Source: Periplaneta americana (lineage: Eukaryota > Arthropoda > Insecta > Blattodea > Blattidae). From it: DNA of 64,000 bases. Numbering within the stretch: position 1 is the first letter of the stretch; each line of letters opens with the position of its first letter. The stretch spans positions 25,453,859 to 25,517,858 of the forward strand of contig NC_091130.1 of the NCBI RefSeq assembly GCF_040183065.1, given 5' to 3'. Of this stretch, positions 29,893-53,300 are shown one piece after another. Under the pieces are notes generated by a model. The model was not told the origin of the DNA. It worked only from the letters and a program-made list of their open reading frames with translations, and made no database searches. Position numbers and translations under genes: made by a program.

Positions 29893-30428
29893 ATGGAATT
29901 TTTCCTGTGGTCGTTCACAGCATGGAATTTAGGTTAATTTTAGATAAGACCTCTCCTGGCACCCATAATCATATATTTGGTTATCCTATTACATAATCTT
30001 GCACGACCAGAAATGGGTTCATTCTAAAATGCTTGAGCATTGCAAACCAGCCATCCATTTCACGAAGAGAGCTAGTAAATAAACGCCATAAGAATGATGA
30101 TGGGACAAAAAAAATTACAAAAATAATATGAAAGCTTTTAATGTTTGTTTTCAGTTCATATAAAAACAAATATTTTTTTAACTATAAAGGTCGTAGTATT
30201 GAGAAAAATTTGTCAGATTGCAGTACGCACACAAATTCCACAATTTGGTATATCTGGCCGACATCTACGGCTGACCACTAGGATCCAGAATACAAAGCAG
30301 AGGTTAAATTAAAAATAAGATATGATTGCGGAGAGAATACGGAACAATGATAAATTTAAAAATAAGACACAATTTGATTTCGGAAAAACATGAGAAGAAA
30401 ATACATTGAAGAGCAATGAAATGAAGTA

Positions 30429-30754: not shown

Positions 30755-31030
30755 GGGTCAAGAATGAGGCTTCTTTGATTTTCTTTAAATTATTTTGAGT
30801 AACACAATTTGCCAAATTTTCCAACTCAATATTAGAACAAATCAAATTAAGACGTACGATATAATATTTTCAAATTAAATAAGGAAAGACTAAGAGGACA
30901 CTGCATGGGAAACCAGAATAAACAAAAGTACGAATACTAAAAATTATAATCATCTGTCCGGAAAGTATCCAGCCATTTTGAATATCTTGAGAAACAGTGC
31001 AGCAGTCTTAACGCACATGTGCTTTCACTT
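30755..31030 (-). repeat. Degenerate third copy of the DCAF11 terminal-exon region
   Basis: On the minus strand the intron-like part (AGATATTCAAAATGGCTG..., AGTATTCGTACTTTTG..., TTAATTTGAAAATATTATAT) and the exon start (GTTGGAAAATTTGGCAAATT) match the region 32007-31740. Here the WDG codons have become TGA GTT GGA, and the polypyrimidine/CAG acceptor is degraded (CTAATATTGAG). It lies downstream of the functional last exon in the transcript direction, so it is probably a dead duplicate. Confidence 0.75.
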
Positions 31031-31472
31031 ATGATTCAAGATTATGAGGGCTAATTAGGTATTAGATTTACACATTCTCTACTAGAGAAAAAAATCAATC
31101 TTGTACAAACAAGTATCTACCTAGATATGCTGCATACAATACAGATTCCCAGTTCATACAGTACAGACTCCCAAAATTTTCAGCATTAATTTCCAATAAT
31201 GATGCGAAAAATGCACCAATAAGCTTCCACATCACTGAAAAAGAAGTAAAATGGTTGTGCAAAATATAAGTTAATTATGTTCTAAAGACTAGCAATTAAA
31301 CAAAACGTCAACATCCCTGTAGGACATCCATGGAAACATCATTCTCGTAATGTCCAATACTGCTCCATTCTACATATGAGCAAACTTCGAAAAAAAAGAT
31401 TTGTCTGTTTCACTGAAAAGTCATGTGTCAACTCACCCACACCACAACACCACCAGTGGTTGGTTACACAAG
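31031..31472 (-). other. Putative 3' UTR of DCAF11
   Basis: Sequence after the TGA at 31473-31475 in transcript direction. I see no AATAAA on the minus strand in this stretch, so the cleavage site is undetermined. Confidence 0.4.
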
Positions 31473-31670
31473 TCAACAGCTTGTGGTTCGCTTCTGTTCA
31501 GTTCCTTCTTGTGACTTCTGCTGCCGCTCTCGCTGTTGGGCAATACGACGGCTGCGACGGAGACCTCTAATATTATTGTCATCATAATGGATCAGGAGCT
31601 CGGCCTCATCACCTTCCATCTCTGATTTCGATTTTCCAGTATAAAACCATTTCCCAAGTGTTCCATCCCA
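31473..31670 (-). CDS. DCAF11: DCAF11 terminal exon (main form)
   Basis: Acceptor CCCTTTTTTGACAG; 65 codons and a TGA. Starts WDGTLGKWFYTGKSKSEMEG, closing the propeller, then a charged tail ELLIHYDDNNIRGLRRSRRI, AQQRERQQKSQEG. The RRSRR basic stretch could be a nuclear localisation signal (inference). I prefer this exon as the main end because the tail is longer and ordered in codon use, but no transcript evidence is available. Confidence 0.9.
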   Translation of the reverse strand, partial: WDGTLGKWFYTGKSKSEMEGDEAELLIHYDDNNIRGLRRSRRIAQQRERQQKSQEGTEQKRTTSC

Positions 31671-34600
31671 CTGTCAAAAAAGGGGGGAAGCAGGAGAATT
31701 ATGAGTAATTTTATCTTCATATGGAAAATGGAGCTCAGAGCCAATGTCCTCCGAATTGTCGGTGTAACACCATTTGCCAAGTTTTCCATCCCACTGTTAG
31801 AACAAACCAAATAAAACCACTTTTATATAGATATAAGATACAACATTTTCAAATTAAATGTGGGAAAATTAAAAGAAGAATGAATGGGAAAGCAAAATAA
31901 ATGAAAGTACGAATACTGTGAACATTTCTGTGGGGACACATGACATCTGTCCTGAAAGTATTCAGCCATTTTGAATATCTTCAATACCAGTAGCACAGTT
32001 TTCACGTAACTTTGTAACCAATGAGAAGAGACTTTCTGTGCATGTGCGAAGTAACTTTCAATATATTTTAAAATTTTTTATCTAAAATGAGGATAGTGCA
32101 GCTGGGGTTATCTAACAATTTTGGCAGCATTTTCCGAAGTTTATATTTTTCTCTGCAAAGTGTAGGCTACCATATCTCTGCTTATAGCAGTTAGATTTAT
32201 TTCAAATTTTCTTTGTGTATTTAGTTGGTATTATAGCATAAATTGACACAGTTTTTTTTAATAATAGTTTTTAAAGCATGCGGATGACGTAAATATGTTA
32301 GGAGAAAATCCACAAACGATTAGGGAAAATACCATAATTTTACTTGAAGCAAGTAAAGAAATAGGTTTGGAAATAAATCCCGAAAAGACAAAGTATATGA
32401 TTATGTCTCGTGACGAGGATATTGTACAAAATGGAAATATAAAAATTGGAAATTTATCCTTTGAAGAGGTGGAAAAATTCAAATACCTGGAAGCAGCAGT
32501 AACAAATATAAATGATACTTGGGAGGAAATTAAACACAGAATAAATATGCGAAATGCCTGTTATTATTCGGTTGAGAAGCTTTTATCATCCAGTCTGTTG
32601 TCAAAAAATCTTAAAGTTAGAATTTATAAAACAGTTCTATTACTAGTTGTTCTTTATGGTTGTAAAACTTGGATTCTCATTTGAGAGAGGAACATAGGTT
32701 AAGGTGTTTGAGAATAAGGTGCTTAGAAAAATATTTGGGGCTAAGAGGGATGAAGTTACAGGACAATGGAGAAAGTTATACAACACAGAACTGCACACAT
32801 TGTATTCTTCACCTGACATAATTAGGAACATTACATCCAGACGTTTGAGATGGGTAGGGCATGTAGCACGTATGGGCGAATCCAGAAATGCATATAGAGT
32901 GTTAGCTGGGAGGCCGGAGCGTAAAAGACCTTTGGGGAGGCTGAGATGTAGATGGGAGGATAATATTGAAATAGATTTGAGGGAGGTTGGATATGATGAC
33001 AGAGACTGGATTAATCTTGCTCAGGATAGGGACCAATGGCAGGCTTATGTGAGGGCGGCAATGAACCTCCGGGTTCCTTAAAAGCCAGTAAGTAAGTAAG
33101 TTTCTAAAGCAGATTTCTTGAAAAATATAGCAAAAAATGAGATAAGAATTTACATATTAAAAAAAAATTAATAAAATATTATTATTTTTTAAAACTCTTC
33201 CATCAGATTACTTATTAAGAGTGTCAGAAATAAGCTGTAAAAGTTTCACTGTTTTACTCCCGACAGTTTTAGAGAAAAGGTACAGTAAATATCACTAATT
33301 TAACATGTGTTAAGATAGGAGGTTCCTAGTCCCCTTAAGAGAACTTCGGGCCATATCTATGGCTAAAGTGCTAGAGTATTTATCTTCCATACAGGCAACC
33401 CAGGCTCGATCCCCAGTCAAGTCACAAAGGAATTTGTGGTAGACAAAGCAGATGTTGTATAGAGTTTTTCTCGGGGTATTCCCATTTTCCTCATTTGTTC
33501 CACCAACCTCCACCTCATTTCATCCATCATCTCCAACAAAAAATAGACACAATACAGGTTTCTTATGCTGACATAAGGACTTGGGGCATCGTGTCCTTTG
33601 GAATTATCAGGCTACTTGTCTGTGATGGGACATAGCTCTATCAGATGCTGAGGTATGGTGGCCCACCCATCAACACCAGATTCGCAAATAATCAGAATTA
33701 TGATGGATAAACTCTGTATTTGAATGTAAATTAATATGTGGAAGAAGTTTTCAAAAGAGGCACTACATGGCAAAGCTATTTAGTTGTACTTTGCTGGTAG
33801 AGGTGATTCAGCTAGCGACGTCAGCCCTGTTGTCTAGTGCATGCTGAAACGTGATTTTGTTGGTTTGTAAGAGTTTTTTGTGTTGTCAAGAAAACTTTAG
33901 TGGGGTTGTGTTACGTTATGCCTGGTCCGTATTTACCAATATCATATTACTGTCTTTGTGTTAGTGCTGTGTATATAGAAAATGTGAAGTGATAGAAAAA
34001 AATATTGTATTGTATTGTATTTATTAACATTCCATGGTATTCATACACGCTTACAGCTAGAATATGGAACAAGTCAAAAAACTTAATACTATTATAAAAT
34101 TTTAATTTATAGTCACAGTCTAGATGAAATATATACAGACGAGGTTTACAATATAGCCTAATAGTACAACACAAAGTTTTAGTATCAATTTCATGAAGTG
34201 TTATTGAATGTCATGAATTCACCTACAGAATAGAAGGCGTGAGAAATTAGGTACTTCTTTAATTTGGCCCTAAATAATCTTATGTTTTGAGTTTCATTTT
34301 TTATATCGATAGGGAGGCTATTGAAAATTTTTACTGCCATATAACGCACTCCTTTTTGATAGCATGATAGACTTGCCGATGGAGTATGAAAGTAATTTTT
34401 TTGACGTGTATTTATGCTATGAACTGTTGAATTAGTTACAAAGTTTTCACGATTACATACAAGGAAGATTATTAATGAAAAGATATACTGACAAGCCATG
34501 GGCATTATTTGTAGTTTTTTTAAAATAGTCCTACACGATTCCCTAGATTTGGCACCTACTATTATTCTAATTACTCTTTTTTGTAATAGAAATATATTGT

Positions 34601-37600
34601 TACTATCTGTGGAATTTCCCCAGAATATTATTCCAAAACTCATTACCGAGTGGAAGTATGCAAAGTATATTGTTTTTAAGGTATTGATATTTACTATCTT
34701 TAGCATAGATCTAATAGCAAAACAAGCTGAATTTAGTTTGGGGGTAATTTCTTTAATATGATTTTTCCAATTTAACACATTATCGATTTTTAAGCCAAGA
34801 AATTTGGTTGTTGTTTCTAATAGGGATCTATTATTAATTATTGCGCTAGAAATTTGCGATGTTGAATTTGGACAAGATTTAAATTGAATTATGTTAGTTT
34901 TGTTACAATTTAATACTAATTTATTGACTGAGAACCAGTCACATATTTTGAAGAGAATTTCCTCTGTTGAAGATTGGAATGTGTTGGAGTTATTGGCTGT
35001 AATTACTATACTTGTGTCATCTGCAAGTGATTTCTTTCACCGAATTCAGCACCCAAAAATTAGATACATCCACCCATTTTCACACCAGATACACCAAAAA
35101 AAAGTTTAAATTTGTCGACTTGTGTTATTAATGCTAATTCGGATCTAATTAAATGTCATTTCGGTTATATATTCTTCTTCTCACATACGTTTTTTTCTTC
35201 AGAACCCCATAAAAACGTATAAAGAAGTTTTATTGTATTACTTACATTAACAACTGCTGTCAGATAATGCAATGATGTCTTCTAAATCTGTGTCAGCTAA
35301 AATCTCCAATTTTCAAAGGTTTCCCTCATTTGTGGGTCCCCCCGCCCCGTTCCACTCCTCCAGGGCTGCTTTTGCCATGCTGTTCTCTTGGAAATGTTAG
35401 AGCACGATAAGAAATGGTGTAATCATTTATTCTGACTTGAGTAGACTAAACACCTTGTTAAGCTGCAGTGACATATGGAAAGGTACCACAGGGCACAGAT
35501 TGCATCTACCAGAGTCGACATTCATCAAAGCAGGATTGAATTGTGTTATACAACTGTCTATACTCCGAAATACAGTGAAACCTCTCATTTACGGACACTG
35601 AAGGGACATAACAATCTGTCCGCATCTGGGAGGTGTCCTTTATTGGGAGGGAGGCTCCCCAATCTAACAGTAAATTTATAATATGCATTATGTATGCCTT
35701 CACACTTTAAATTAAATGATTTACTGTAGTTTAATTATAAATACAGTCTATAGTGCTACAGTAAATTCTTTGCAACTCTGAACTATTGTAGATAAGACCG
35801 ATAGAGGAAAATACAGTACTGTGCCATGCAATTGCATTCTAGGTCTACAGTTATGCAGTACTGTAATTTACAGTTTTCAACTTAACCTTTACGTTCAGGC
35901 GCCATGTCTCTCGAAACAGAACAACTGATTGAAGTGAAGAGAATAATCCTACTAACCCTATCATGTGTCAAATACAATTTCCCGATCGCGGAAACCTTCG
36001 ACCTATCAGACAGCTTAAATTTTATGACTGTTTATCCACCCACTTCCAGCTAACAAGGGGTAGCCGGCTGGGCTAGTGGTAGCCTACGAGACTCTTATTG
36101 TCTTCTTTCATGTTAAGGAATTTCTGTACAGTTCTCAAATCTAAATTTTCCATTTTTGCAACACATTAGGTTTTGAAATCCAAGTTCTGACCGCAGTCAG
36201 GAGGTAAAGCAAGCTTTAGGACTGTGAAACAGCTGTCCGTGTCCGTGTCTGAGAGTGTCCGTAAACGAGAGTTAAATTTATCATTATTTCTATATTATAT
36301 CAGTTGGGACATAAAAATTTGTCCGTATATGAGGAGTGTCCGTATCTTGGTGGTGTTCATAAGGAGAGGTTTCACTGTAATGCCTATTAGAAACGTATTT
36401 TAAAACATTAATTCCATTTCCTGATACTCCTTTCTGTAATGTTATATATTTTGAAGTAAAATATATTTTAATGTGGAAACTGACATGAAAATAGGTGTGT
36501 ATTTGAACGAAAACAATATCATATTATGGAACTATGTTTTCTCATGGCACATTATCAAGTTGTTCACTGAAATCCTTCTACCAATATTTTGCATTTGTTC
36601 ACATCAGGATTATAAATACAGTTAACATGTATGGATGGATAGTATTTAAAAACATATGCATACACACGATTGAAACAAAAAGCAAAATAACACTCTCGGA
36701 ATAACACAACAGAAAAACACAATCACACTGAAACTCCCTGGCTAAGTTATCCTAAGTCAGTTGCTCTTTGCTATAGCACATGGAGATGGTAATGATATTC
36801 GCCTGCAAAGATACTATCCTGACTCTAATGAAGGAGTTAATTACCTCAGTGAGAGTAAGTATTGCAGTATACAAAACTTACCGACGTGCTAACAATTTCA
36901 GGTCTGTGAGGATGCCATGACACATCACGTACACATGCTCTGTGTCCACTCAGTGCAGAATGAACTCTCCCCGTGAGCACATCATAAACTGGAAACAAAA
37001 GTTACTTTAAGTTAAATTGAATATTATCTCCTTCATTTGGAAATAATATTAATAGTTTATTTTAATCACCTGTAACTTTCAAGAGTGTCCCTCGAACTAC
37101 ACATCTACAGCATGATTACAAAAGAATACCCCAACTTTGAAAGACTATATTTACAATAACAACCTGGGTTCACCGTTCTCTTCAATAATTACATAGTAAA
37201 GTTTAATTTTGATTACAATAACTTCAAAAAAGTTTGATTTTCATTTCACAAATATTCAATGTGACCATCACGAGAAACCCAAACAATAACAACTCTATAA
37301 TTAAACTCATCCCACACTCTTTGTAGCATGTCCGGCATTACTGTTAGGATGGTTGCAGATTTTCGCATTTTTAGTTCAATATTAGCTTCCCATACACTGG
37401 TCACAGAAAAACTACACGACATGGTGTGCGGTGAGTTCCAAGACAACTTCCTCCTGAACAACTAGGGAGTTTGCTATGTAGAGTTCAAAAGGAAGTTCGA
37501 GGAGGAATGTGAGGGGTTTCTTTCAAAGATAATAACTGGAGATGAGACTTGGCTGCATTATTTTTATCACAAGAGTACAAGATATCTCTATCATTACCAA

Positions 37601-40600
37601 CACTAAAGAAAGCCAAAGTGGTGACATTTGCAGGAAAGATCAAGGCCATCCAAATTTTTTATATTCAAGGAATAGTGTATCAGCATGTTGTACCAACACA
37701 CGCAACTAGAATAATACTACAAAAGTATACTGAAGATTTTGTACATCTTGATTACACAACTTTTAATACTATATCACTTCGGAAAACATATTTGTGTCTT
37801 TCACGTGTTAAATTTTATTACCTTGTTAACATGTTAAAAGGCACCAAGACCAGCAACAGTCAGTTCTGAAGATAGCCAATAGCAGGCCGAAACATGTTAA
37901 CAAGGTAATAAAATTTAACACGTGAAAGACACAAATACGTTTTCTGAAGATTTTGAATGATGATGTCACGCAAAAATGACTACATCTCAATGCAAGATGA
38001 ATGGATGCTGCACCAAGATAAGGCATGGTCCCACAACATTAATAAAGTTACGGAATATCTCACTAAATAAACGTGAATGTACCCTATCATTCTCAATACA
38101 TTCCAGGCTTGGAAACATTTCATTTTTTTCTGTTTTCGAAGTTCAAGAAACACCTTCGTGGAATGCACTTTCAGAATTCAGAAATAATAGTGATGACTGT
38201 GGAGGAGATTCTGAAGGACATATCAAAGAAGGGTTTCTGGCACATCTTTGAAGATTGGTATAAGCTCTGGAACAAGTGCATTATAACTAATGAGGACTGC
38301 TTCGAGGCAGGTGAGCACTAAAACCCATTTCGGCAAGCATTACTTTCTATAAAGACTGCACATTTTAATGCCTTTCTTGGACAAGAAAATTCATCTTATA
38401 ATAATCATCATTCATGGAAAAATCAAATGTTTCGAATAAATATTTTTACATTATGCAAAAATAAGGGAAAAAAATGCTCAAAGAGAAGAATAATACAGGA
38501 GCCAAGAGACTGTTAAAAATTAGGGGTAAATACGGGAGGGTTGGCAACCCTAGTTAAAGCCCTCTCTACAGACTGTTCCTGTAATTTGTCTTGAAAGCAT
38601 GAATAATGCCTAAATCCAAAGGCTGCAATTTGCTTGTACAGTTGGCTGGCAAAAATTCCAACTGAATATTTCTTAGGTTTAAGGTTTGAGGATGGGCAGG
38701 GCACTGATCAGTATTACCGTTGGCTGTAAATGTGCAATGTTGACGACACTGAAACTCATGATCAAAGCACATCTGTTAGATTACAAATACGCCATTTAAC
38801 TTCCTAACATTTGAGACGCCATTTTGTGCACTCACAGCAATGTAAATTGCGGGAAATTTGAAATTACGTTAACACAAATGCGAGGTATATATAACATTAT
38901 GAACATATGAAAATTTATGGGATCCAAAAATTGATGGTGTAAATGGCGGGGAAAATGTAAATAGCCAGAACGTAAAAGTGGGATTCTACTGTATGTCAGT
39001 ACAGTGAAAACATAAAAAATCTGAAAGTTAGAATTTATAAAACAGTTATATTACCAGTTGTTCTTTATGGATGTGAAACCTGGACTCTCACTTTGAGAGA
39101 GAAACATAGATTAAGGGTGTTTGAGAATAAGGTGCTTAGGAAAATATTTGCGGCTAAGAGGGATGAAGTTACAGGAGAATGGAGAAAGTTACACAATGCA
39201 GAACTGCACGCATTATATTCTTCACCTGACATAATTAGGAATATTAAATCTAGATATTTGAGATGGGCAGGGCATATAGCACGTATGGGCAAATCCAGAA
39301 ATGCATATAGTGTGTTAGTTGGGAGGCCGGAGGGAAAAAGGCCTTTGGGGAGGCCGAGACATAGACGGGAAGATAATATTAAAATGGATTTGAGGGAGGT
39401 GGGATATGATGATAGAGACTGGATTAATCTTGCTCAGGATAGGGACAAATGGCGGGCTTATGTGAGGACAGCAATGAGCCTCTGGGTTCCTTAAAAGGCA
39501 GTAAGTAGTAAGTAAGTATCTATTTGTATAAGAAATCTATCATCCATAATATCACGAGGTGCCATGTACTTTCCCAATATACACTCCACAGAGTACTATA
39601 CTTACTGACTATTCTCCCTGCTGCACACCCTGTGTATATGTACCGCTGGCCCGTTGTGAACTCTGGTGAGAAATGACATCTTACGAGAGTCTGGAGTACT
39701 GAGTGACCCCGATATGTCATCACAGATGTATCACCCTCTAAATTCTTCTTAGGGTTGCATACTGTAGGAACCAAAAAACATATGAACTCAATATAAATGT
39801 CACGAAATCACATTTATATAAAATATGGGACACAGCAATACAATACCAACTCACATTTCTTAGGCACTTTCTGCCATCGATAATCCCAAGTTTGATCTGA
39901 TACTGCTTTTCGGGTATTGTTTTCGCCAGTTCTACCTGAAAAGACTCGTACATCCCATAATTTAATACTCTGATCTTTACAATTTGAAATAAGGTGTCGA
40001 CCATCTCCACGAGGGTCAATATATGTTATTCCATCCATGTGACCAGCCAGAATACCAACCGGTTTCGGGTGTGATTCGCTCAGAGTTCTTCTATCCCACA
40101 CCTGAAACCATACAGCATAAAATCAGTTCACCTTCAGTAACAGACAAAGTAAAAGACAAAATCAGACATGTTTATTTGCCTCGAAAATAATAGAGTGGAT
40201 TCTCTGTAGTAGTTCTTAATCCAGCTGTGCACAGAACTTAGGTCAGAATTTTTCAGAAAATTACATCAAAATAGAAATTGTGGTAAGTAAAAGCTTTTAT
40301 CAATCTTCTTAATGTATCCAGCTGTTTGCTGACAACATAAAGTCCACTATAGTCCACTGTAGTCTATTCAGTTGTTGTTTTTCACGAGAAATGGGGGGTA
40401 TTTTGATCGGTGTTCATTATATACTGTTTTCGCTGTAAGAAAAATAATGTAAACATAAGCACGATGCTGTCATATCCATGATTGGCTCCCAGTCGAAACA
40501 CTCACATTACGCAGGAGAATATAGTTCGTATTTGGAAACCATAATCTTATATTATGTGAAAATAAAAAATTGAATTCTAGTTGTTAAATACGATGAAACA

Positions 40601-43600
40601 TATAACCTCGCTCATATGTATAACGCTATGTAAAAGAAACGCTACTTTTATATTTTGTTGTGTGCTATGAACGCGGATGAATACCAACAGTAATACCGAG
40701 GTAGTCTGTTCCTGTAACAAGCTGGCATCACTTGAGCTCGTAGTTGTTCATGTAAGCACGTGGTACTGAAGTATGGCTTCTGCATCCTCGGTGTGTGTGG
40801 TTATTAATCATAAGTGTGGAAACCCTCTCAAAAGCGGACAAAAACAAAATAGTCTTAAGTGTATATATTAAGTTAAGTGAGTTTTAATTACAGTAATTAT
40901 AAAAGTAAATGTTTCCTAAGCAAATGAATGCATAGTAGTGAGGTTAGATCTACTTGATGGGTAACGGGAAATGTTTAACATGGAACAGGATGTACAACAG
41001 TAGGCGGGAACATGTACTGAGAATCTATGGCGCCAAACAGTGGCCAATGAAGCCTCACTTCAGTCACGTGCTATTGTTTATATTAGGATTTTTCTTACAG
41101 CGAAAAGATTATAGATGACTGTTGCTAGTAGCCAGAGTTGGGGTGTAGTCAATATATACTGCAGGGCTGTGTCTTCTGCAACTGGTACTGATGATTTTAA
41201 TTTACTTCTTTTGTGGTTTATGGATGGACAGTAGAGAAGAATGTGTTCCAGATCTTCATCATGATTATTACACCACAGACAAGTAGGATTATCAGAAATG
41301 TGAAATCGGTGTAGGTACAATTGAGTGACAATGTGACCTGTTCTGGCTCTTGTTAAAAATGTTTCAACATGTCTGGCCAAGTTTTTGTACATTTCCAGGT
41401 CATTTGGTTTCTTTTGTACAGACTGTAAAATTTTTCCTTTGTCAGAAGAGAGCCAATTGTTGATCCATAGGTTTGTAAAATGAGACTTTACTGAAGCAAA
41501 AGCATTTGATAGAGATATCACTTGAAGAGGTCTTGGTTGCAAATATGTTGCCTGTTTTGCAATATTATCGACTTTCTCGTTTCCAGGTATACCACAAGCT
41601 TTTATAAGTTCCCACATTAGGCTACTAAAAAATAAACGCAACTGAAACTGTATATCTGCAGTAAATCTACACTATTTATGGTGAAAGACTCCATTTGAAA
41701 TCTCCTGTTAAGCACTTCAACTTTTAAAGGCTTGGTGCATAAAACTTATACATAAATTTGTAAAAAATGTCAGATGAATTTTTTATAATGCTTTTCCAAT
41801 GGATAAAATGTAGTATGTGAACTATAAACATACATACCTTGCACAAACCATCGTCACCACCACTGTACAGTATCTGTGAAGTGCTGTCAGCAAAAGCAAC
41901 TGTATTTACATCGTCATCATGTCCCTCTATCTGAGAAAGAAAAGAAATGACACATTATTGCACATATTATGTGTGTTGTTCCCTGAGGTTTAGTACCGCC
42001 TCGAGACAATATGGTAAACGATTTTGGATATTGATCAGTCATGAAATATGGTTTAGAAAGAATCATTTTCACTTATTTAATTCTATTGTACTTGGCTATT
42101 GAGATAATTAGCTGGCTCATACAGTATCCAGCGACAGTCGAGGCACCAGGAAGTCTGAACTTAATACCCTTTGAGATAAGTTACGTAAGCTGCCCTGCCA
42201 TGAGAATGTACATGTGAACATGACAGGGGAAGTATCTTTTCCTTTGTATGGATGCGTGTGATTGCAAGTGACATCAGGAAGCGTCATGCAAATCTAATTG
42301 AAGACAAGAAAGATGTATTGTTGGTGGATTTCATGGAACAAGGCAATCAATTAACCTTGCATTCATATTTTCACTCACCAGTACATTTATTTAATAATGC
42401 TTTCGTATATTCAATCAAGTGTACTAACTCTCTTGTACATTCACTCGTAAACTCACTCACTCACACACCAAGTCAATTGTACATTAATTCATTAATATGT
42501 ACACTCACTCATACACCTAGTCAACTGTACACTCACTCACTCACTCACTCGTTCACCTACTATATTGCAAACTAACTCACTTATACACTCAGTCAATTAT
42601 ACATTCACTAACAATTGTACACTCATTCATCCACAGTTAATTGTACTTACTCTCATATATTCACTAACTCAATCGTACACTCATTCATCCATCCAGTCAT
42701 TGTACACTCACCCATACTCTCACTCAATCACTCACTCGTCCATGCAGTCAATTGTACACTCATCCATACATTCACTCGCTCAATCGTACACTTAGTTAAT
42801 TGTACAGTTAATTGGTAAGATCGAGTCAAACCTAAGTTACTGGCATTCTTACCACGCCATGAGGTTGCCCCGTGATGGACAGCACATTGGCTTTTCCCTA
42901 AGTCGTTTCCTATAAGCATGTCATAGGTTATAATGCGTGGATTTGCTTTGTTAATTATTTGCACTAAGCCGAGACAACTCTGTTGGCACTTTGGATTGTC
43001 AATCTCAGTGAGTTGCCTAAACTGTATTGAGGAAGACGTATTTTCAACCAGTTACACAATACAGCAACGCATTTTCCTCATTACAAAATCTCTAGCAGAG
43101 AAGTCGTACAAGTTGTGTTTATATTTTGGACATTTCTTAGTACCAAAGACAGAACCTGTTTCTCGCCACTGATTTAATAATTTAACACACTGTTTCAAAC
43201 CACTTGATTATCCGACACAATTTATTTATTCTGAATTCCAAGTACTAAAAATTGAGCAAATATATAAACATACATTACTAACTTATTTTCACAAAAATCG
43301 AATGAATTTTATAACTGAAAAACATATACATAACACCAGAAGAAATGTCCCAACTCTTTTGGCAGAACCTAAATGCCACACTACAGCTGGATTAAGACAT
43401 AGTAGGAATTATGGACCAAGACTATACAATTCAGTATTGAAAAATAATCCAGACCTAAGCAATTTACACATTCTTAAGTTTAAAAATAAAGTGAAAATGT
43501 TTGTATGATATTTGATAAATTTTATTATAATTTTTTTAAATGTTACTAGCATTATATGGTACTAATTTTTATTGTATTTATCTGATGCATGCACCCTATA

Positions 43601-44331: not shown

Positions 44332-47300
44332 TTATTGTTACTATTATTTATATCATCAGCATTATTATTTGAACCCTGTAAAATTTATGTAGACTACTGG
44401 ACTGTACCCGAGCACGAGCATATGCTCATTTCAGGTATCTATTCATATGTATTCAATTCAAATGTAAATTGTAAATAAATTTGAATTTGAATTTGAATCA
44501 ATGATTGTGTAAGACAAAACGTTTCATAACCACTTGTTCTTGTAGTACTATCTATGGTTGAAAATACGTCTTTTTCAATACAGAAAACAACTCACCAACA
44601 GAGACCGACAATGCAAAATGCCCGCAGAATTGTGTCGCCAGCTTAGAGTAAACAATTAATTAACAAGGCAACCCATGCACTGTGTCCTGCACTGGAAAAC
44701 CAGGAAAATCCAATGTATTGCTCGTCAAAAAGCAATTTTGTGGTGTGGTAAGAATGCCGATAACTTAGGTTTGAATACCTCTGAATTAAACAATGAACGA
44801 CAGTAGACATGACAATAGTCCAACACTATGATAACCAAAGCTCCACTGTAAATGTTACCTACCCTCAAAGCTCTTTGGTTGCATTCCCTATCATAGACAT
44901 ACAAAAAGCCATCATTGGCACCACCGAGTATCTCTCTTCCATCTGATGAAAATACTAGTGAAAATATGCAGAACCGTCTTTCTTCAGGACAAAGTGGAAG
45001 AGCATCTTGATTCTCAGAGTCTCCATACAGTCGAACAAGATGAACTAGAAAGAACCAACAATGTTACTAAGCATTTGCACACTTCGCCTAGCGTCTATGT
45101 GAAGTTAATATTTATGGAAATTATACTATACATTAATATTATTTCTGACACTTATGTGAGCTACTACAAGAAGCATGTTCATAATGATGCAAGCAAGGAT
45201 ATGAACAATCTTATTCTAGGCCAGGCATGTCAATTGATGCCCACAGGAGCAAGCGTGCGCTTTAGAGCCCAGGAGAGCCTGAGCGCTTTACTGCAGAAAG
45301 GAAAGAGACAGACGAAAGAGGTGATATATGCCGCTTGGTCGAGCTATATTCAGGGATGGCCAGCACTGATTCAATAGATAAAGGGAAGAGAACTTATTAA
45401 AACTGTATCCATGTTAATTTTTAGATTTGCCTGAGAAGTATAATTGCATTATAAGAATGTAAGTTTTAATTTTAATGCTCATTTTTCACAAGTTTGATTT
45501 TTTTATTCAAAAGAAATATTTTCTCAACTTTTCGTATAGAAAAGTGAAATTTTGAGGTATAGGCCTATTTATTTAGTAGCCTTACAGAATGTTTTCGTAA
45601 ATCTAATATATCGATATACCTATTACTGAAGATAGTGTATTGAAAATTCTGAAAATATTCGCATGGAAATTGTTTGTAAGAAAATGAATTAACAAAGCAA
45701 CTACTGTTACATCATAAGCAAAAGATACGTGTCCATGTGTTGTAAAAATGTCAGCTCTATAGCTTCAGCAGATTTCGAGAACATAATTTAACATTCTGAT
45801 GATAGGAAGTTGCTCACAAATATCACCTTAAAAGCATAATGCGATAAGAGTTTTGTTATGTAATATTAGTTACACTTAAAAAGGATACAGTACCTAGGTA
45901 ACTTTGCTTTGTACTGTAATATTGTTTTTATTAGTTTATTGATTACTTTTGTAAGGCTAAAGATACCATCAATATAAAGTCCAACTTATCATGTCATACT
46001 CAATCTCTTTCTTTGGAATATCACTTTCTTTATGAATGATGTGTTTCATCCACTTAATACAGTATAATATTATACTACTATGGAATTTAAGTGAATATTC
46101 CTTCTTAACTCTCTATTATGTTATTAAGATTTAAAACACAAGTCCAATATTAAGAAATCAGTGTTAGTACTTTTGTTTTACAGACAATATAGATAATATT
46201 AAACAGAAAGAAGCCATATAAAAATAACGACATAAAATTTCACGTTCCGTTTGAAGTTTGTGCACCACTGTTTTCTTAATCCAACAGGTTGCTTATTCAT
46301 ATACACAACCCTTCCTCTTTCCATACTTAGCGCTTGCTGCCCGCGCACGACGTCAAGGTCAGAAAAATGCGCTTGCTTTGACATCACTATAGGCTGTGAA
46401 GTTGGAGTCAGGAGCTAATTTTTAGAGAGAAAGTAGGCTCATGAAGAGAGCCAAAGGAAGAGGGGGGGGGGGGGAACAACGATAAATGTAACAAAAACGA
46501 AATAAAAATGAAAACAACAAAAAAGAGAGAAAAGAGGAGAAAAAGATAAAAAAATAAAAGGTAGCAAGGAACAAAGAGCAAAAGAAAGAGAGAAAATATT
46601 AATCACAGGAAAAAGAAAAAAGTACACAGAGAACTATACTACGTTCCACAATGCCTGACAGGCGACATAAACATTGCTGGCAGAGGAAGGGAAAAATATA
46701 TTTTATTGCTATTTAACCAATGACAGATGTCACATTCCAGACTTACAGTATCTTGAAGTTGGGTGGTCTGAAGGTCCTACCTCCCCCCAAATTCAAGATA
46801 AGCCTGAAATGTGACCTCTGCCATTTGTTGAATAGCAATTATCCTTCTCTCTTCCTCTGTCGGCAATGTTTACGTCGCCTGTCAGGCATTGTGGAACAAA
46901 GTACAGTAAAACCTCGATAAAACGCGCCCGCTTATTACGCTATCCTGTGTAATACGCTTTTTTTGTCCGGTCCCTGCACATTTCATACATAACGCCTTTA
47001 TATTTATTTTAGTAGGTTATTTTACGATGCTTTATCAACATCTTAGGTTATTTAGCGTCTGAATGAGATGAAGGTGATAATGCCGGTGAAATGAGTCTGG
47101 GGACCAACACCGAAAGTTACCCAGCATTTGCTCATATTGGGTTGAGGGAAAACCCCGGAAAAAACTCAACCAGGTAACTTGCCCCGACCGGGAATCGAAC
47201 CCGGGCCACCTGGTTTCGCGGCTAGACGCCCTAACCGTTACTCCACAGGTGTGGACACGCCTTTATAAAATACCCCGTTTGTTGCGCTCAAGTCCCGCAT

Positions 47301-50300
47301 AATACGCTGTTTTTGTGGAATATTTTCGATGTCATTTTCAGCAATGTACTGTAACAGCAATGAAACATCTTGGTCACTGAACTCACTGGTGCCATTAACC
47401 TGAAAAGTACTGGTATTCGACCCTTTACCTGCGCATTTAAACCTTCATACTTCATACCTTAGTATACCCCACCCTCTTGTTAAGCTCTCTTACTCGACTC
47501 CTTATCTGTGTGGTTAAAGCCTACATACAGTTACAAACCTCACCCTCTTGCTAACCCTCTGTCTCAAACAACATTCCTCACACAGTCGTAATAAAATTCT
47601 GGAAATTTTTGCTGGGCAGTTTGTTGTCCTTTAGTGTATTGAAGTGTCTGTGAGTGTGATTACAATGAGTGTTAAACGAAAAGTGCTTTCTGTATCGAAA
47701 AATTGGAAATCTTACGAAAGTACGATGAGAACAGTACTCTTACTCAGAAACAACTCTCTGATGCATTAGGAATCCCATCATCGACATTAAGAACGATAAT
47801 AAAAAATCGCGACTCAATCACTACAGCTGCGACGTCAGGAGGATGTAATTGCAGAAACTGAAGTGTGGTAAACATGAGGACTTGGAGAACACGCACACGG
47901 CAAACAACTATAAATGACTTTTTTTCGAAAGAATTAAGTACAGTACATATTGTAAAATGTCTTTGACGTACAGTACAGTAATTACATAATGGAGTAATAC
48001 TGTATTACCTTTCATGAATCATGTATTTCAATAAAGAAAAATGCTAATATATACTGTATATAAGTCAAAATTAGTATACTACCTAACACGCGGTCCCGGT
48101 TAATACGCGGTTTACACCCGGTCCCTTGAACAGCGTCTTATCGGGGTTTCACTGTATACAGGAATGGAAAAACTGAAAAGAAACCATAAAGAGACAGAAA
48201 GAAACGAAAGGGAGGAGTAAAGAACGAAAGAAAGAAAGAAATAAATAAAGAAAAGAAAACAACAAGACAGTTTATACTCACGGCATTCTGACCAGCTGGA
48301 GTAAACAATATAACTTCCATCAGGGCTGAAAGCTGTATCTAGCACACTCCATCCCACATCCCGGGCCTGAATTGTCTTCAATAGTACAAATTTATCTTCA
48401 GCCGTCATATACAATCTCAAGTTCCGATCTGAAGGAAAAAACACATGAGTGTGTGTTTCTTTAGTATACAATTCGATTCAGTTTTTAATTCGTAAAAAAT
48501 AATCCCTCACAACCCCACTGGAGTTGCTTTGAATATTTAGCATCAAGGGTCTCAAACATAAAGCACATTCAAACCTTCAAGAATATTTCTGTAACATAAT
48601 ATTCACATTCTTTCTGCTGCTTACACAAACTGAAAGAGCAATCTTGATAAAGCAAAATATCACGCACAGTACTGCATCTGAGTTCACGGAAAGATAATTA
48701 TCCACATGCATGATTTTGGAGTTAGGTTAATGGCAATATTTGGATCTACGCATATTTGAGAGAAATTCTTTTCACATATGAACATAACGAAATCTTCTAT
48801 AAGGTCAAACATAAGCAACAGAAACTTGAATTCTGCTCTGCGACTTCAGAAATCAAATTTTATCTCAAGAATCGCGATAATAACTCACAGCAAATGTTAA
48901 ACTGCTTTTTGTAATAATAATACTGTGTAAATTATTACAATTAAAAAGTTAATTTTATAAAAGCAATTGATTAATAATTTATTTAATGCAGAAATTGTTG
49001 TCAAAAAGTTTTACATTTATACAGAGGGTCGTACTGAAAGTCATGAGCAACCCATTACTATAATTCCAATTTCAACAATGTAACAAAACAAATGATCATA
49101 ATCTACAGACTTTACACTATGTATTGACATATTATGACGTCATTAGCTTCTAACACGTGATAACAGGCAATGTTTGCAAAATGGTCGACAACGACTGTGT
49201 GCTGTCATTGAATTCCTTATTAAAGAGAAAAAAATCTTCTGCTGAAATTCACCTCAGGCTTCAGCATGCATACAGAGATGTGTGCATGGGCGTCAGCAGT
49301 GTTAGGAATGGGTGAAACATTTCTAAGACGGGAACAAGAGCATCCAAGATGAGCCTCGTAGCGGTCGTCCTCAAACTGCCTTCACAGAACGCAACAAGGA
49401 AAGAGTTGATGAGTTCTGGGATGCATTCTTGTTGAATTTCCTGAACCTGGAGAGATACTTTTGAAGCTCCATTGTGCATTGCGCGAGAAACAACATGAAA
49501 AGAAGATACTCCTGCAACATGATAATGCGCAGCATCACATTGCTCCTGTCACCATGGAGAAAATCAGGACAGTTTGGTGGGAAACTCTTCCGCATCCTCC
49601 CTACAGTCCCGACTTGGCACCCTCCGACTACCATATTTTCAGTTCTAAAGGAACAGCTGCGAGGCCAACCCTACATCAATGTCTTCAGGAAACTGGAGCG
49701 GACTTCTACCACAAGGAAATTTACGAACTTACAGAATGGTGGAAAAAATGTGTGCAAAGAAATGGAAGCTATGTTGAAAAGTGATAGAAAAGTCTGTAGA
49801 TTAAAGTGATACACCTGGTTTGTCTAAAAAATAACAATTAATATTTATAATAATGGATTGCTCACGACTTTTAGTATGACCCTCATATTATTGTATATTC
49901 TATTGCAGCAACTGAGACATTTAATTCATTTACTTTCCTTCAGTGGTTTAGTTTGAACGTTCTACTGTGTTATGTTGTTATGATTAAAATTACAATTTAA
50001 AATCTGTGACCAGGAGGAAAAAGGTCTTAAGTCAGTTTTTTGTGAAAATGAAATTTTTATATATTCTGAAAGCAGAAACAATTCTCTACAATCTGGTAAA
50101 ACGGCTAAAGTCAAATGAGACTCCTGACTGGATTTATAGAGCATTACCAAATGTCCTAAGTACTTTTTCAATCGAGCACACACAGAATAAAGGACTTAAG
50201 TATATTTAATACTTTATTCCTTACAAACCATCACATGTTTACTTTCCATGCTTCCCTATTAAAAAGGTCTAACTTGTATTTTAGCCATTTTAGCACATAC

Positions 50301-53300
50301 TGATGCCCTTTCCTTTTAAAACTTTAAGCACTAGGGTAAACAGTCCTATAATTGTGTAAGACTCATTTTGCATTCCTAATAATTTACATTTCTCATTTAT
50401 TTTGACATGTAAAAGGTCTTATGTTTAATAGTCCCTTCTACTCAGTTTGGCTTCTGATCTTAAAAGGGCTTAAGTGTGGCTATTTTTGGAAATAATCAAG
50501 AAAATTGTTAAATGAGCAACATTATCTATTTTAGAAGAAATATAAACAAATAATATCCAGGAAAAACTTAATTAAAAAAACTCTATAATTGACACCAATT
50601 TCAATCTTTCTACTGCTTTCCTGAAAAGTATAAAATTTTTACTTAAGACCTTTTTCCTCCCGGCCACAGAAATAATTCAAACAGATACTGGTAATTAATC
50701 TGTTATATTTAGCAATATGCCACTTCATAAATATTAGCATTATTTATGCTTTAAACAGGTGTTAATACAAAATGTTATGATAAAGACAGATAGAAAGAAA
50801 AGGAGAAAACAACGATGAACTGGTATTCTCTCTCTTTCCATCAAACCTGTTTTCAAGTCCCCCACTCTTTTTGTGTGCCCATGCCTGATGTAACCTATTT
50901 AAAAATTCATATTCTATTTAATATACTGAATGTAAACATAAATACATATGTCTGAGACCCATGATTAATTAACTAAAATTAAATTTTAACAAAAATATCT
51001 GCATTCACCTTGACAAGCGCTCAGAAAGTAGTTGCCATCTTTTGAATACTGTCCACAGAAAGCTTTACTGTGATATGTAGCTACAGTCTTCATCTTGTTT
51101 GGGATGTAATGGTTGGTGATTTTACAGCGATCTCCACGGGTGAAGGAACTTCGGCCAAACATCCCTCTCTAAAATATGAAACATATGCCTTTCTCTGAAG
51201 TCCCCCCACACTTTGTACACACTTCCTATAGTATATAAGTTTTGACTCGATTAAAAGAACCTCCAAGTAACAGAAAAAACATTTTTTTCATAAATTATTC
51301 AGAAATGAAGCCCAATAAAATGCCAAGATAATAATTTACAATGTTCTCAGTTTTGTAACTAATAAATTGTAAATGCTTGAAACATGAAGGACCTTCCAAA
51401 ATAAATAAACACGCCTTAAAAAAAAACAACTTTTTTTGTCATGTAAAGATATAATTAAAAAACCGTTAGTAGACTTAAAAAACAAACTAATACGTTTACA
51501 TGAGTCACAAGCTACAAAAATGAGTATATTTGTAGAAACTTTAGGGAGAAAAAATCCTGCAAAAAAGTTAATACAATGTAGATAAGGTAAAAGAATTCTT
51601 GTTACTGCAAATCATCTTTATTTTCTGTGAAATGAAAGCTTTTTATCCCTTTTATAAATCTGTAATTCAGGAATTCACTATTAAAAATAATAAGGGATAA
51701 TTTTCTTAAAAAACATACTCGATTGCAACTTTTTACGAGACAACCATCATTAATAGCCTGGGACAAAGAATAAACATAAAATAATGTTGGAAATTATTTT
51801 TATGTATGAATTATTTCCTTCATTTAGCCTCTAAAACAGAGCAATGAAAATTATTTACGTATATTTTACAAATACTAATATAATGTTGCATTCGTTATGG
51901 TTCCAACGACAAAAAGCAAAAGACAATTGTACAGAAAATATTTTTCTCTATTTTATTTAACACAGTCACTGTTTTCTTTATAAAGCTTCAAAAGCAAAAT
52001 TAATATATGAATGCCAGTGTTGGGGGGGGGGGGGGGTAAAGAATTTTATAAACATTACGTATTTTTTTTTATGCTCGACCATGCCGAAATGTAGTAATTA
52101 TACACCTGGTAGCAGTCCTTTAATGCATGTCATTAAAGTACACCTACTCATTAAAGTACAGGTGTGTTCAGCCAATGAAAAGTCAGCTTTGTACCGTTAT
52201 AAAACCTCTGCCAATGACAAGTCAGCTTTGTATCGTTATAAAACCACAAGTATCGATTATTCTCGGATATGCAATCGAAAGAGAATTAGCGAAAAGTCAC
52301 AGAGGCTGGAAATCCAATACTGTCGCAGAAGGTTATGTTCTGTTACTATAATAATTAGCGTTAATTGTAAATAATATTCAAATAAATTCAATTTGTCATC
52401 TCGTTTTTCAATGTCTAATTTAATTTCAATGTTATATCAATGTTAATATTTAGTTTACTCTGTAGGTTCTTATAGGCTATCAAGGTCAATGTGGACATCT
52501 GTTCCTCGGAAAAAATCAATACTTTCGCATCTGCGCACATCTCACAATTTACGAGGTAATGCTCAAGGTCAGTTAGATACAAATAAAATGAATAATTTCA
52601 AGTTAGAAATATGGTCGAGCATAAAAATTCGTATGAAACTCGCCTATAATGGTAATTAAGAAGCTCGTATGAAAATTATGTTTATGAAACGAGCGCAAGC
52701 GAGTTTCATAAACATCCTTACTCGCTTCTTAATTACTATCATTATAGGCTCGTTGCATAATGTACTATTATAAAAGGGCAAAAAAATTAAATAACAGAAC
52801 TGAAATCCTTCTACATTATTATGAATTTTATCTCCATAAAATTAATAAAAACAAATAATACACAAACAGCATTAAAATAAATTGTATGTATTTTATGAAC
52901 ATTATTAATGTTTTACTCATAAAACTTCTAAAAATAGAAATATACAGTCACAATAGTGTTAAAATTTATTATACTCTGTATAAACATTATGCATGTTTCT
53001 GAACTTGCTATACAATTTTGTTTTACGGTAAAGAATAAATGGTGTTGAACATTTTTCATAAATGCTTTATAAACATGAAAACTTCAAGAAAAGAAAAATA
53101 CAATTTTTTAAACATATTCTGTAGCAACAATTTTTTTATCTACAGTCTCTCAGAATATCTCATCGAGGTTCAAATCGCAACTGCGTTATATTAAATTTAT
53201 GCTAAATCATTTAATAAACAACGCTGTGAAGTTATTCAAGGAAGTCATCCTCAAGCAATTTAGACACTTAACTTTGATCTCTCTTTAACCTTGATATGTA

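Follow-up and report, generated by a model that had tools for sequence, protein, structure and literature searches.

Two in-phase 3′ splice sites in the last exon of cockroach DCAF11 and a possible choice between acidic and basic C-termini

In the DCAF11 gene of the cockroach Periplaneta americana, one donor is followed by two acceptors, A and B, that open homologous frames in the same phase, and the stop codon of the first frame is embedded in the acceptor of the second. At a probability of roughly 60%, our reading of the sequence is that a tandem duplication made A and B two alternative 3′ splice sites and that acceptor choice yields DCAF11 with either an acidic or a basic tail. Two C-termini, one with an acidic tail of 28 amino acids and one with a basic tail of 54, are likely. 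A third copy, C, absent from the earlier note that drew attention to the locus, lies nearby and is dead; its presence suggests that an extra exon is being kept by selection, and with the dead copy adjacent, selection can be tested within a single genome. We infer the use of both acceptors, to which sequence constraint lends indirect backing, and likewise any functional difference between the tails, such as the effect on substrate choice or localisation that the earlier note put forward as a possibility.

The gene and its upstream exons

The window is the whole stretch of 64,000 nt that was analysed, and all positions refer to it. The minus-strand gene is DCAF11 (WDR23), as the earlier note had it. 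With phmmer its protein matches 9ptu_A, 'DDB1- and CUL4-associated factor 11', at an E value of 4.7e-107, this being the sole PDB sequence at E of 1e-30 or below, and the best match along the WD40 region is DCAF11, as for an orthologue of DCAF11/WDR23. The exon 40101..39855 starts with VWDRR, and so with an instance of WDxR, given as the DDB1-binding motif of DCAF11 in the available part of PMC13373504. The PDB names the 9ptu chain DCAF11, whereas that same part of PMC13373504 states that an experimental structure of DCAF11 has yet to be reported. Seven coding exons, from 51168 to 36882, form one continuous frame into either end (Table 1), and this set stops short of a resolved 5′ end of the gene.

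When DCAF11 peptides were compared with the cockroach's own genome, four of five matches were exons of the DCAF11 locus; the fifth lies on C2, with 41% identity, and we take it to be another WD40 gene. Retrocopies of the mRNA were looked for because one would reveal which junction is used, and none was present among the genome matches of two peptide searches (2 and 5 matches). No relative was confirmed among 11 pattern matches in viral contigs and 131 in genome contigs.

A LINE remnant with a zf-RVT domain (Pfam E 7.5e-08) occupies 41671..41084 (minus) of a DCAF11 intron, and the last intron has open frames at 35036..34197 (minus) and 32268..32684 (plus) that by eye resemble pieces of reverse transcriptase; the former has no Pfam match at E 0.001.

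Table 1. Features of the DCAF11 locus, in the order of transcription
Feature	Positions	Strand	Remarks
Upstream coding exons	51168..51009, 48428..48282, 45044..44863	minus	AG acceptors, GT donors
Upstream coding exons, continued	41930..41838, 40101..39855, 39761..39606	minus	AG acceptors, GT donors
Penultimate coding exon, IYDVLTGRVHSALSGHRACVRDVSWHPHRPEIVSTS	36882..36988	minus	donor TCG/gtaagt, phase 0 exit; phmmer alignment to 9ptu_A
Intron segment upstream of A, common to C	31801..32006	minus	about 60 nt at 32006..31945 are a dispersed repeat
Acceptor A and pyrimidine tract (...ttggtttgttctaacag)	31794..31815	minus	13 of 19 pyrimidines; in-frame TAA at -6 to -4
Copy A, 39 codons and TGA (WDGKLGKWCYTDNSEDIGSELHFPYEDKITHNSPASPLF, then stop)	31674..31793	minus	0 unique changes in the 40 nt from -7 to +33
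Branch-point candidate CTCAT, yUnAy-type	31701..31705	minus	A at -32 of acceptor B; motif match only
Acceptor B and pyrimidine tract	31671..31692	minus	16 of 19 pyrimidines; in-frame TGA at -6 to -4
Copy B, 65 codons and TGA (WDGTLGKWFYTGKSKSEMEGDEAELLIHYDDNNIRGLRRSRRIAQQRERQQKSQEGTEQKRTTSC, then stop)	31473..31670	minus	2.2% of 1733 CAG sites are followed by 65 or more open codons
Possible 3′ UTR intron, 202 nt, GTGAGT donor-like	31235..31436	minus	acceptor 15 of 19 pyrimidines; consensus match only
Copy C, decayed: intron 3′ end, acceptor and about 30 nt of the exon of A	30799..31013	minus	exon-equivalent start 30828

Two acceptors in one terminal exon

After the phase 0 donor at 36882 the exon may start at 31793 (A) or at 31670 (B), both in phase; acceptor A reads ...ttctaacag/TGG GAT GGA and acceptor B ...cccttttttgacag/TGG GAT GGA. 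Two AGs with pyrimidine tracts thus follow one donor, as expected of a pair of alternative 3′ splice sites, and the duplicated starts, with their positions, acceptors and phase, are in the sequence as the earlier note described them. The last letters of copy A are TTT TGA CAG, whose CAG forms acceptor B. As had also been noticed, the segment from 31692 to 31671 serves twice, as the last codons, TGA stop and next CAG of copy A and as the pyrimidine tract and acceptor of B. The branch-point candidate for B falls within the coding sequence of copy A.

The two ends had been described as alternative terminal exons three bases apart. The three bases hold from the stop of A to the first codon of B, but not as a splice distance, the acceptors being 123 nt apart, and the gap of 3 nt holds no separate poly(A) site for A. 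Alternative last exons have by definition a poly(A) site each, though exceptions exist; here neither AATAAA nor ATTAAA occurs between 31473 and an ATTAAA at 30142. Since copy A runs straight into the CAG and B, entering acceptor B directly after its TGA with no intron between, A and B are not separate exons but a pair of alternative 3′ splice sites within a single terminal exon, and a transcript spliced to A would have B in its 3′ UTR. Tandem duplicated exon substitution involves two complete, mutually exclusive exons with introns of their own, which A and B are not, and homologous alternative segments, which they are.

Frame A consists of WDGKLGKWCYT and 28 further residues of net charge -5, and frame B of WDGTLGKWFYT and 54 further residues of net charge +2, or +7 from RGLRR onward, which bears out the contrast drawn earlier between an acidic and a basic tail. 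Both supply the final WD40 motif, WDGxLGKWxYT, and together with the preceding exon both exceed the Pfam WD40 cut-off of 27 (A, 27.8; B, 29.3). The pattern W-D-G-x-L-x-x-W-x-Y is common to the cockroach ends and to human DCAF11 (WDGNLRLWQYR), and we take it to be strand c of the last blade, so that either end could close the propeller. Joining 36882 to 31793 would complete the propeller with the A version of the motif and a short acidic tail, joining it to 31670 with the B version and a longer basic tail, and both forms should fold as full propellers that differ in the tail. The two outcomes would be mutually exclusive because the stop of A is the -6 to -4 triplet of acceptor B: with A in use B would lie in the 3′ UTR, and with B in use all of A would be intron, giving B its branch point and pyrimidine tract.

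Origin of the coupling between stop codon and acceptor

A core of 51 nt (-9 to +42) is 80% identical between A and B, and its score was reached in none of 500 dinucleotide-preserving shuffles; the first comparison had scored 71, where the best of 200 plain shuffles scored 44, and CAGTGGGATGGAAMACTTGG, with up to 3 mismatches, is found twice in the window and on average 0.00 times in 100 shuffles. The distal part (GAGCTCC...TCTCC), up to the start of the pyrimidine tract of B, also aligns as DNA (5 of 2000 shuffles reach the score). Beyond WDGxLGKWxYT the two protein tails match no better than chance (an equal or higher score arose in 1308 of 5000 shuffles), and the homology of the tails is for that reason read from the DNA.

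The simplest history that the sequence suggests would be one tandem duplication in which about 123 nt spanning the junction of last intron and last exon were copied, with a repeat unit of about 22 nt of intron end and about 100 nt of exon that fills the spacing between A and B. The frame of A would have been closed from birth by a stop carried in the downstream acceptor B. Stop and acceptor would be coupled because the duplicated border unit carried an acceptor with a stop at -6 to -4, now TAA in A and TGA in B, and phase and acceptor sequence would account for the seemingly elaborate design. The earlier note had called the coupling unusual. Of 200 CAGs with a pyrimidine-rich tract in the window, just 6 do have a stop at -6 to -4, A and B being two of the six, and none of the seven other acceptors of DCAF11 has one, but the cause of the coupling would on this history be a simple one. 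A common origin of the two pyrimidine tracts we infer from the geometry and the shared stop and CAG rather than from alignment, since the tail of A does not align beyond chance with the end of the intron that precedes A (score equalled in 1250 of 2000 shuffles). Duplication of the 51-nt core only, with the tail of A being the old intron end before B, is disfavoured, as the tail DNA of A and B still aligns.

A decayed third copy and the constraint on A and B

Copy C, at 31013..30799, repeats 32006..31764 at 72% identity. Its acceptor CAG has become TAT, its first tryptophan codon TGG has become TGA, and what was the WDG frame now reads a stop followed by VGKFGKLCYS. Continuation of C into copies of the tail of A or of B is not supported, shuffles reaching the scores in 351 and 1412 of 2000 cases respectively. 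The starts of the two segments (32006..31945 and 31013..30953) are a dispersed repeat of about 60 nt that may have contributed to the A/C duplication. In the genome search 35 of at least 39 matches fall wholly within query positions 1-63, two reach position 73, and the last two are C and A themselves, while 31943..31801 gave matches at A and C only; a second search gave at least three matches besides A and C, all within query positions 1-71. A transposable element behind the whole A/C similarity is thus rejected, only the first 60-odd nt being dispersed, and the neutral divergence was for the same reason recomputed with the repeat part removed.

Over the 40 nt from -7 to +33, unique changes number 0 in A, 6 in B and 7 in C, and one further site differs in all three; over 43 nt the counts are 1, 7 and 8. 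The start of A has thus changed more slowly than that of C (0 of 7, one-sided p 0.008; with 43 nt 1 of 9, p 0.02). Outside the dispersed repeat, A and C differ at 29 of the 115 sites of their common intron sequence (K 0.31). From this a neutral A would be expected to show about 6 changes in the 40 nt, and the probability of none is 0.002; the lower estimate, with the repeat kept (32 of 154 sites), gives 0.008, and across both estimates the expectation is 5 to 6 changes. These figures concern 40 nt only, with limits chosen after the alignment had been seen and a comparison framed after C had been found. The start of A is probably under selection. The constraint in A is seen only in the acceptor and the WD40 strand, and not in its tail. 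Conversion between A and B could partly have kept A unchanged, but at six of the 40 sites A agrees with C and not with B, an argument against recent conversion in this segment.

These counts weigh against the idea that the protein is made from acceptor B only, A being a decaying duplicate, rarely or never used, like C but unbroken. Such a reading would accommodate the short tail of A that reads through a pyrimidine tract, its unremarkable frame (at least 39 codons stay open after 10.7% of CAG sites) and the richer pyrimidine tract of B; yet neutral decay would hardly have spared A in just those 40 nt where C has its 7 changes, or have left the acceptor, the WDG..L..W.Y residues and the frame intact, and we regard it as unlikely.

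Still less likely is a regulatory role in which form A is non-productive, a candidate for nonsense-mediated decay that lowers DCAF11 output. A GTGAGT begins 36 nt after the stop of B, where the chance of one is about 2% given 39 GTRAGT on the minus strand of the 64 kb, and a pyrimidine-rich acceptor would end the possible 3′ UTR intron of Table 1. Such an intron would place the stop of A (31674) about 240 nt, and that of B 36 nt, before the junction, making A transcripts candidates for decay. Against it, the intron is known only by its fit to the splice consensus, conservation of WDGKLGKWCYT would not be required of a poison exon, and insect nonsense-mediated decay is less dependent on exon junctions.

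The changes in C and B differ in where they fall. All five unique changes of C in the first 33 nt, in the codons for W, D, L, W and T, alter the amino acid or make a stop, and they strike four of the six residues shared with human DCAF11. Of the four in B, two are synonymous and two are at residues that also differ in human DCAF11, so that the changes of B strike none of the six shared residues (W1 D2 G3 L5 W8 Y10; chance 0.069). An open frame as long as that of B is rare among the 1733 CAG sites, which were taken from both strands with the exons of DCAF11 itself excluded, and the GC content of copy B (0.475) is coding-like beside those of the upstream exons (0.438) and the last intron (0.345). 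As B has nearly as many changes as the dead copy, the case for it is made from the positions of its changes and from its open frame, and these suggest that B is probably constrained too. The greater change in B (6 against 0 in A, one-sided p 0.016), with a count near that of C, leaves some room for the view that acceptor A, the first in the transcript, is the main or only one used and B a fossil in the 3′ UTR, but with 65 codons open, the conserved residues spared, coding-like GC and a pyrimidine-rich acceptor this is the least probable of the three.

The preferred reading, two functional alternative acceptors, can be carried a step further, in a form that we hold more doubtful than not: a C-terminal switch of the cockroach lineage in the CRL4-DCAF11 receptor, in which acceptor B contains the stop of A, so that splice-site choice alone would pick an acidic or a basic, possibly nuclear-targeting, tail. 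Should both proteins be produced, a short duplication at the border would alone have given the gene two C-termini that exclude each other, thanks to the stop codon that came with the acceptor.

Comparison with known systems

Exchange of a tail by alternative 3′ exons, and tandem duplicated exons, are already known; for DCAF11 isoforms, DCAF11 in insects and duplicated terminal exons or acceptors, the matches listed in literature searches, a minority of the hits for the broader queries, hold no description of the event in DCAF11. The KRAS 4A mRNA carries 4B as 3′ UTR, much as B would lie in the 3′ UTR of A. In the available part of a preprint (PMC9882654) the alternative 3′ exons of KRAS (4A/4B) and CDC42 are described as keeping the folded core and swapping the C-terminal tail, and the cockroach arrangement resembles them in its alternative 3′ ends with a common core. 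It differs in that their alternatives are separate exons, whereas in DCAF11 a single exon has a pair of acceptors, the second of which closes the first frame. The same part of the preprint calls KRAS 4A and 4B homologous exons and suggests that 4A came from the exon of another gene, in contrast to A and B, which would have arisen by tandem duplication in place (PMC9882654).

Tandem duplicated exon substitution events are a recognised class in which, according to the part of PMC9741552 consulted, homologous segments are kept by selection and core residues are conserved, and A and B share with them both the homologous alternative segments and the conserved core residues. Here, unlike in that class, the unit is a partial exon, and exclusion would come from the order of the acceptors; the main text of PMC9741552 has no occurrence of last, terminal or final exon, of stop codon or of splice acceptor.

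Closest by family are the isoforms of DCAF11 itself. Human isoforms 1 and 2 differ at residues 45-70 and in nuclear enrichment (available part of PMC13373504), and the human isoforms, like WDR-23A and WDR-23B of C. elegans, differ near the N-terminus and in localisation (available parts of PMC13373504 and PMC6692315). The cockroach forms would likewise differ near one end of the protein, but where the human and worm isoforms vary near the N-terminus, here it would be the C-terminus. If the proposal is true, DCAF11, whose known isoforms differ near the N-terminus, would have a second, C-terminal way to vary, the counterpart in the same gene of the N-terminal variation of worm and mammal.
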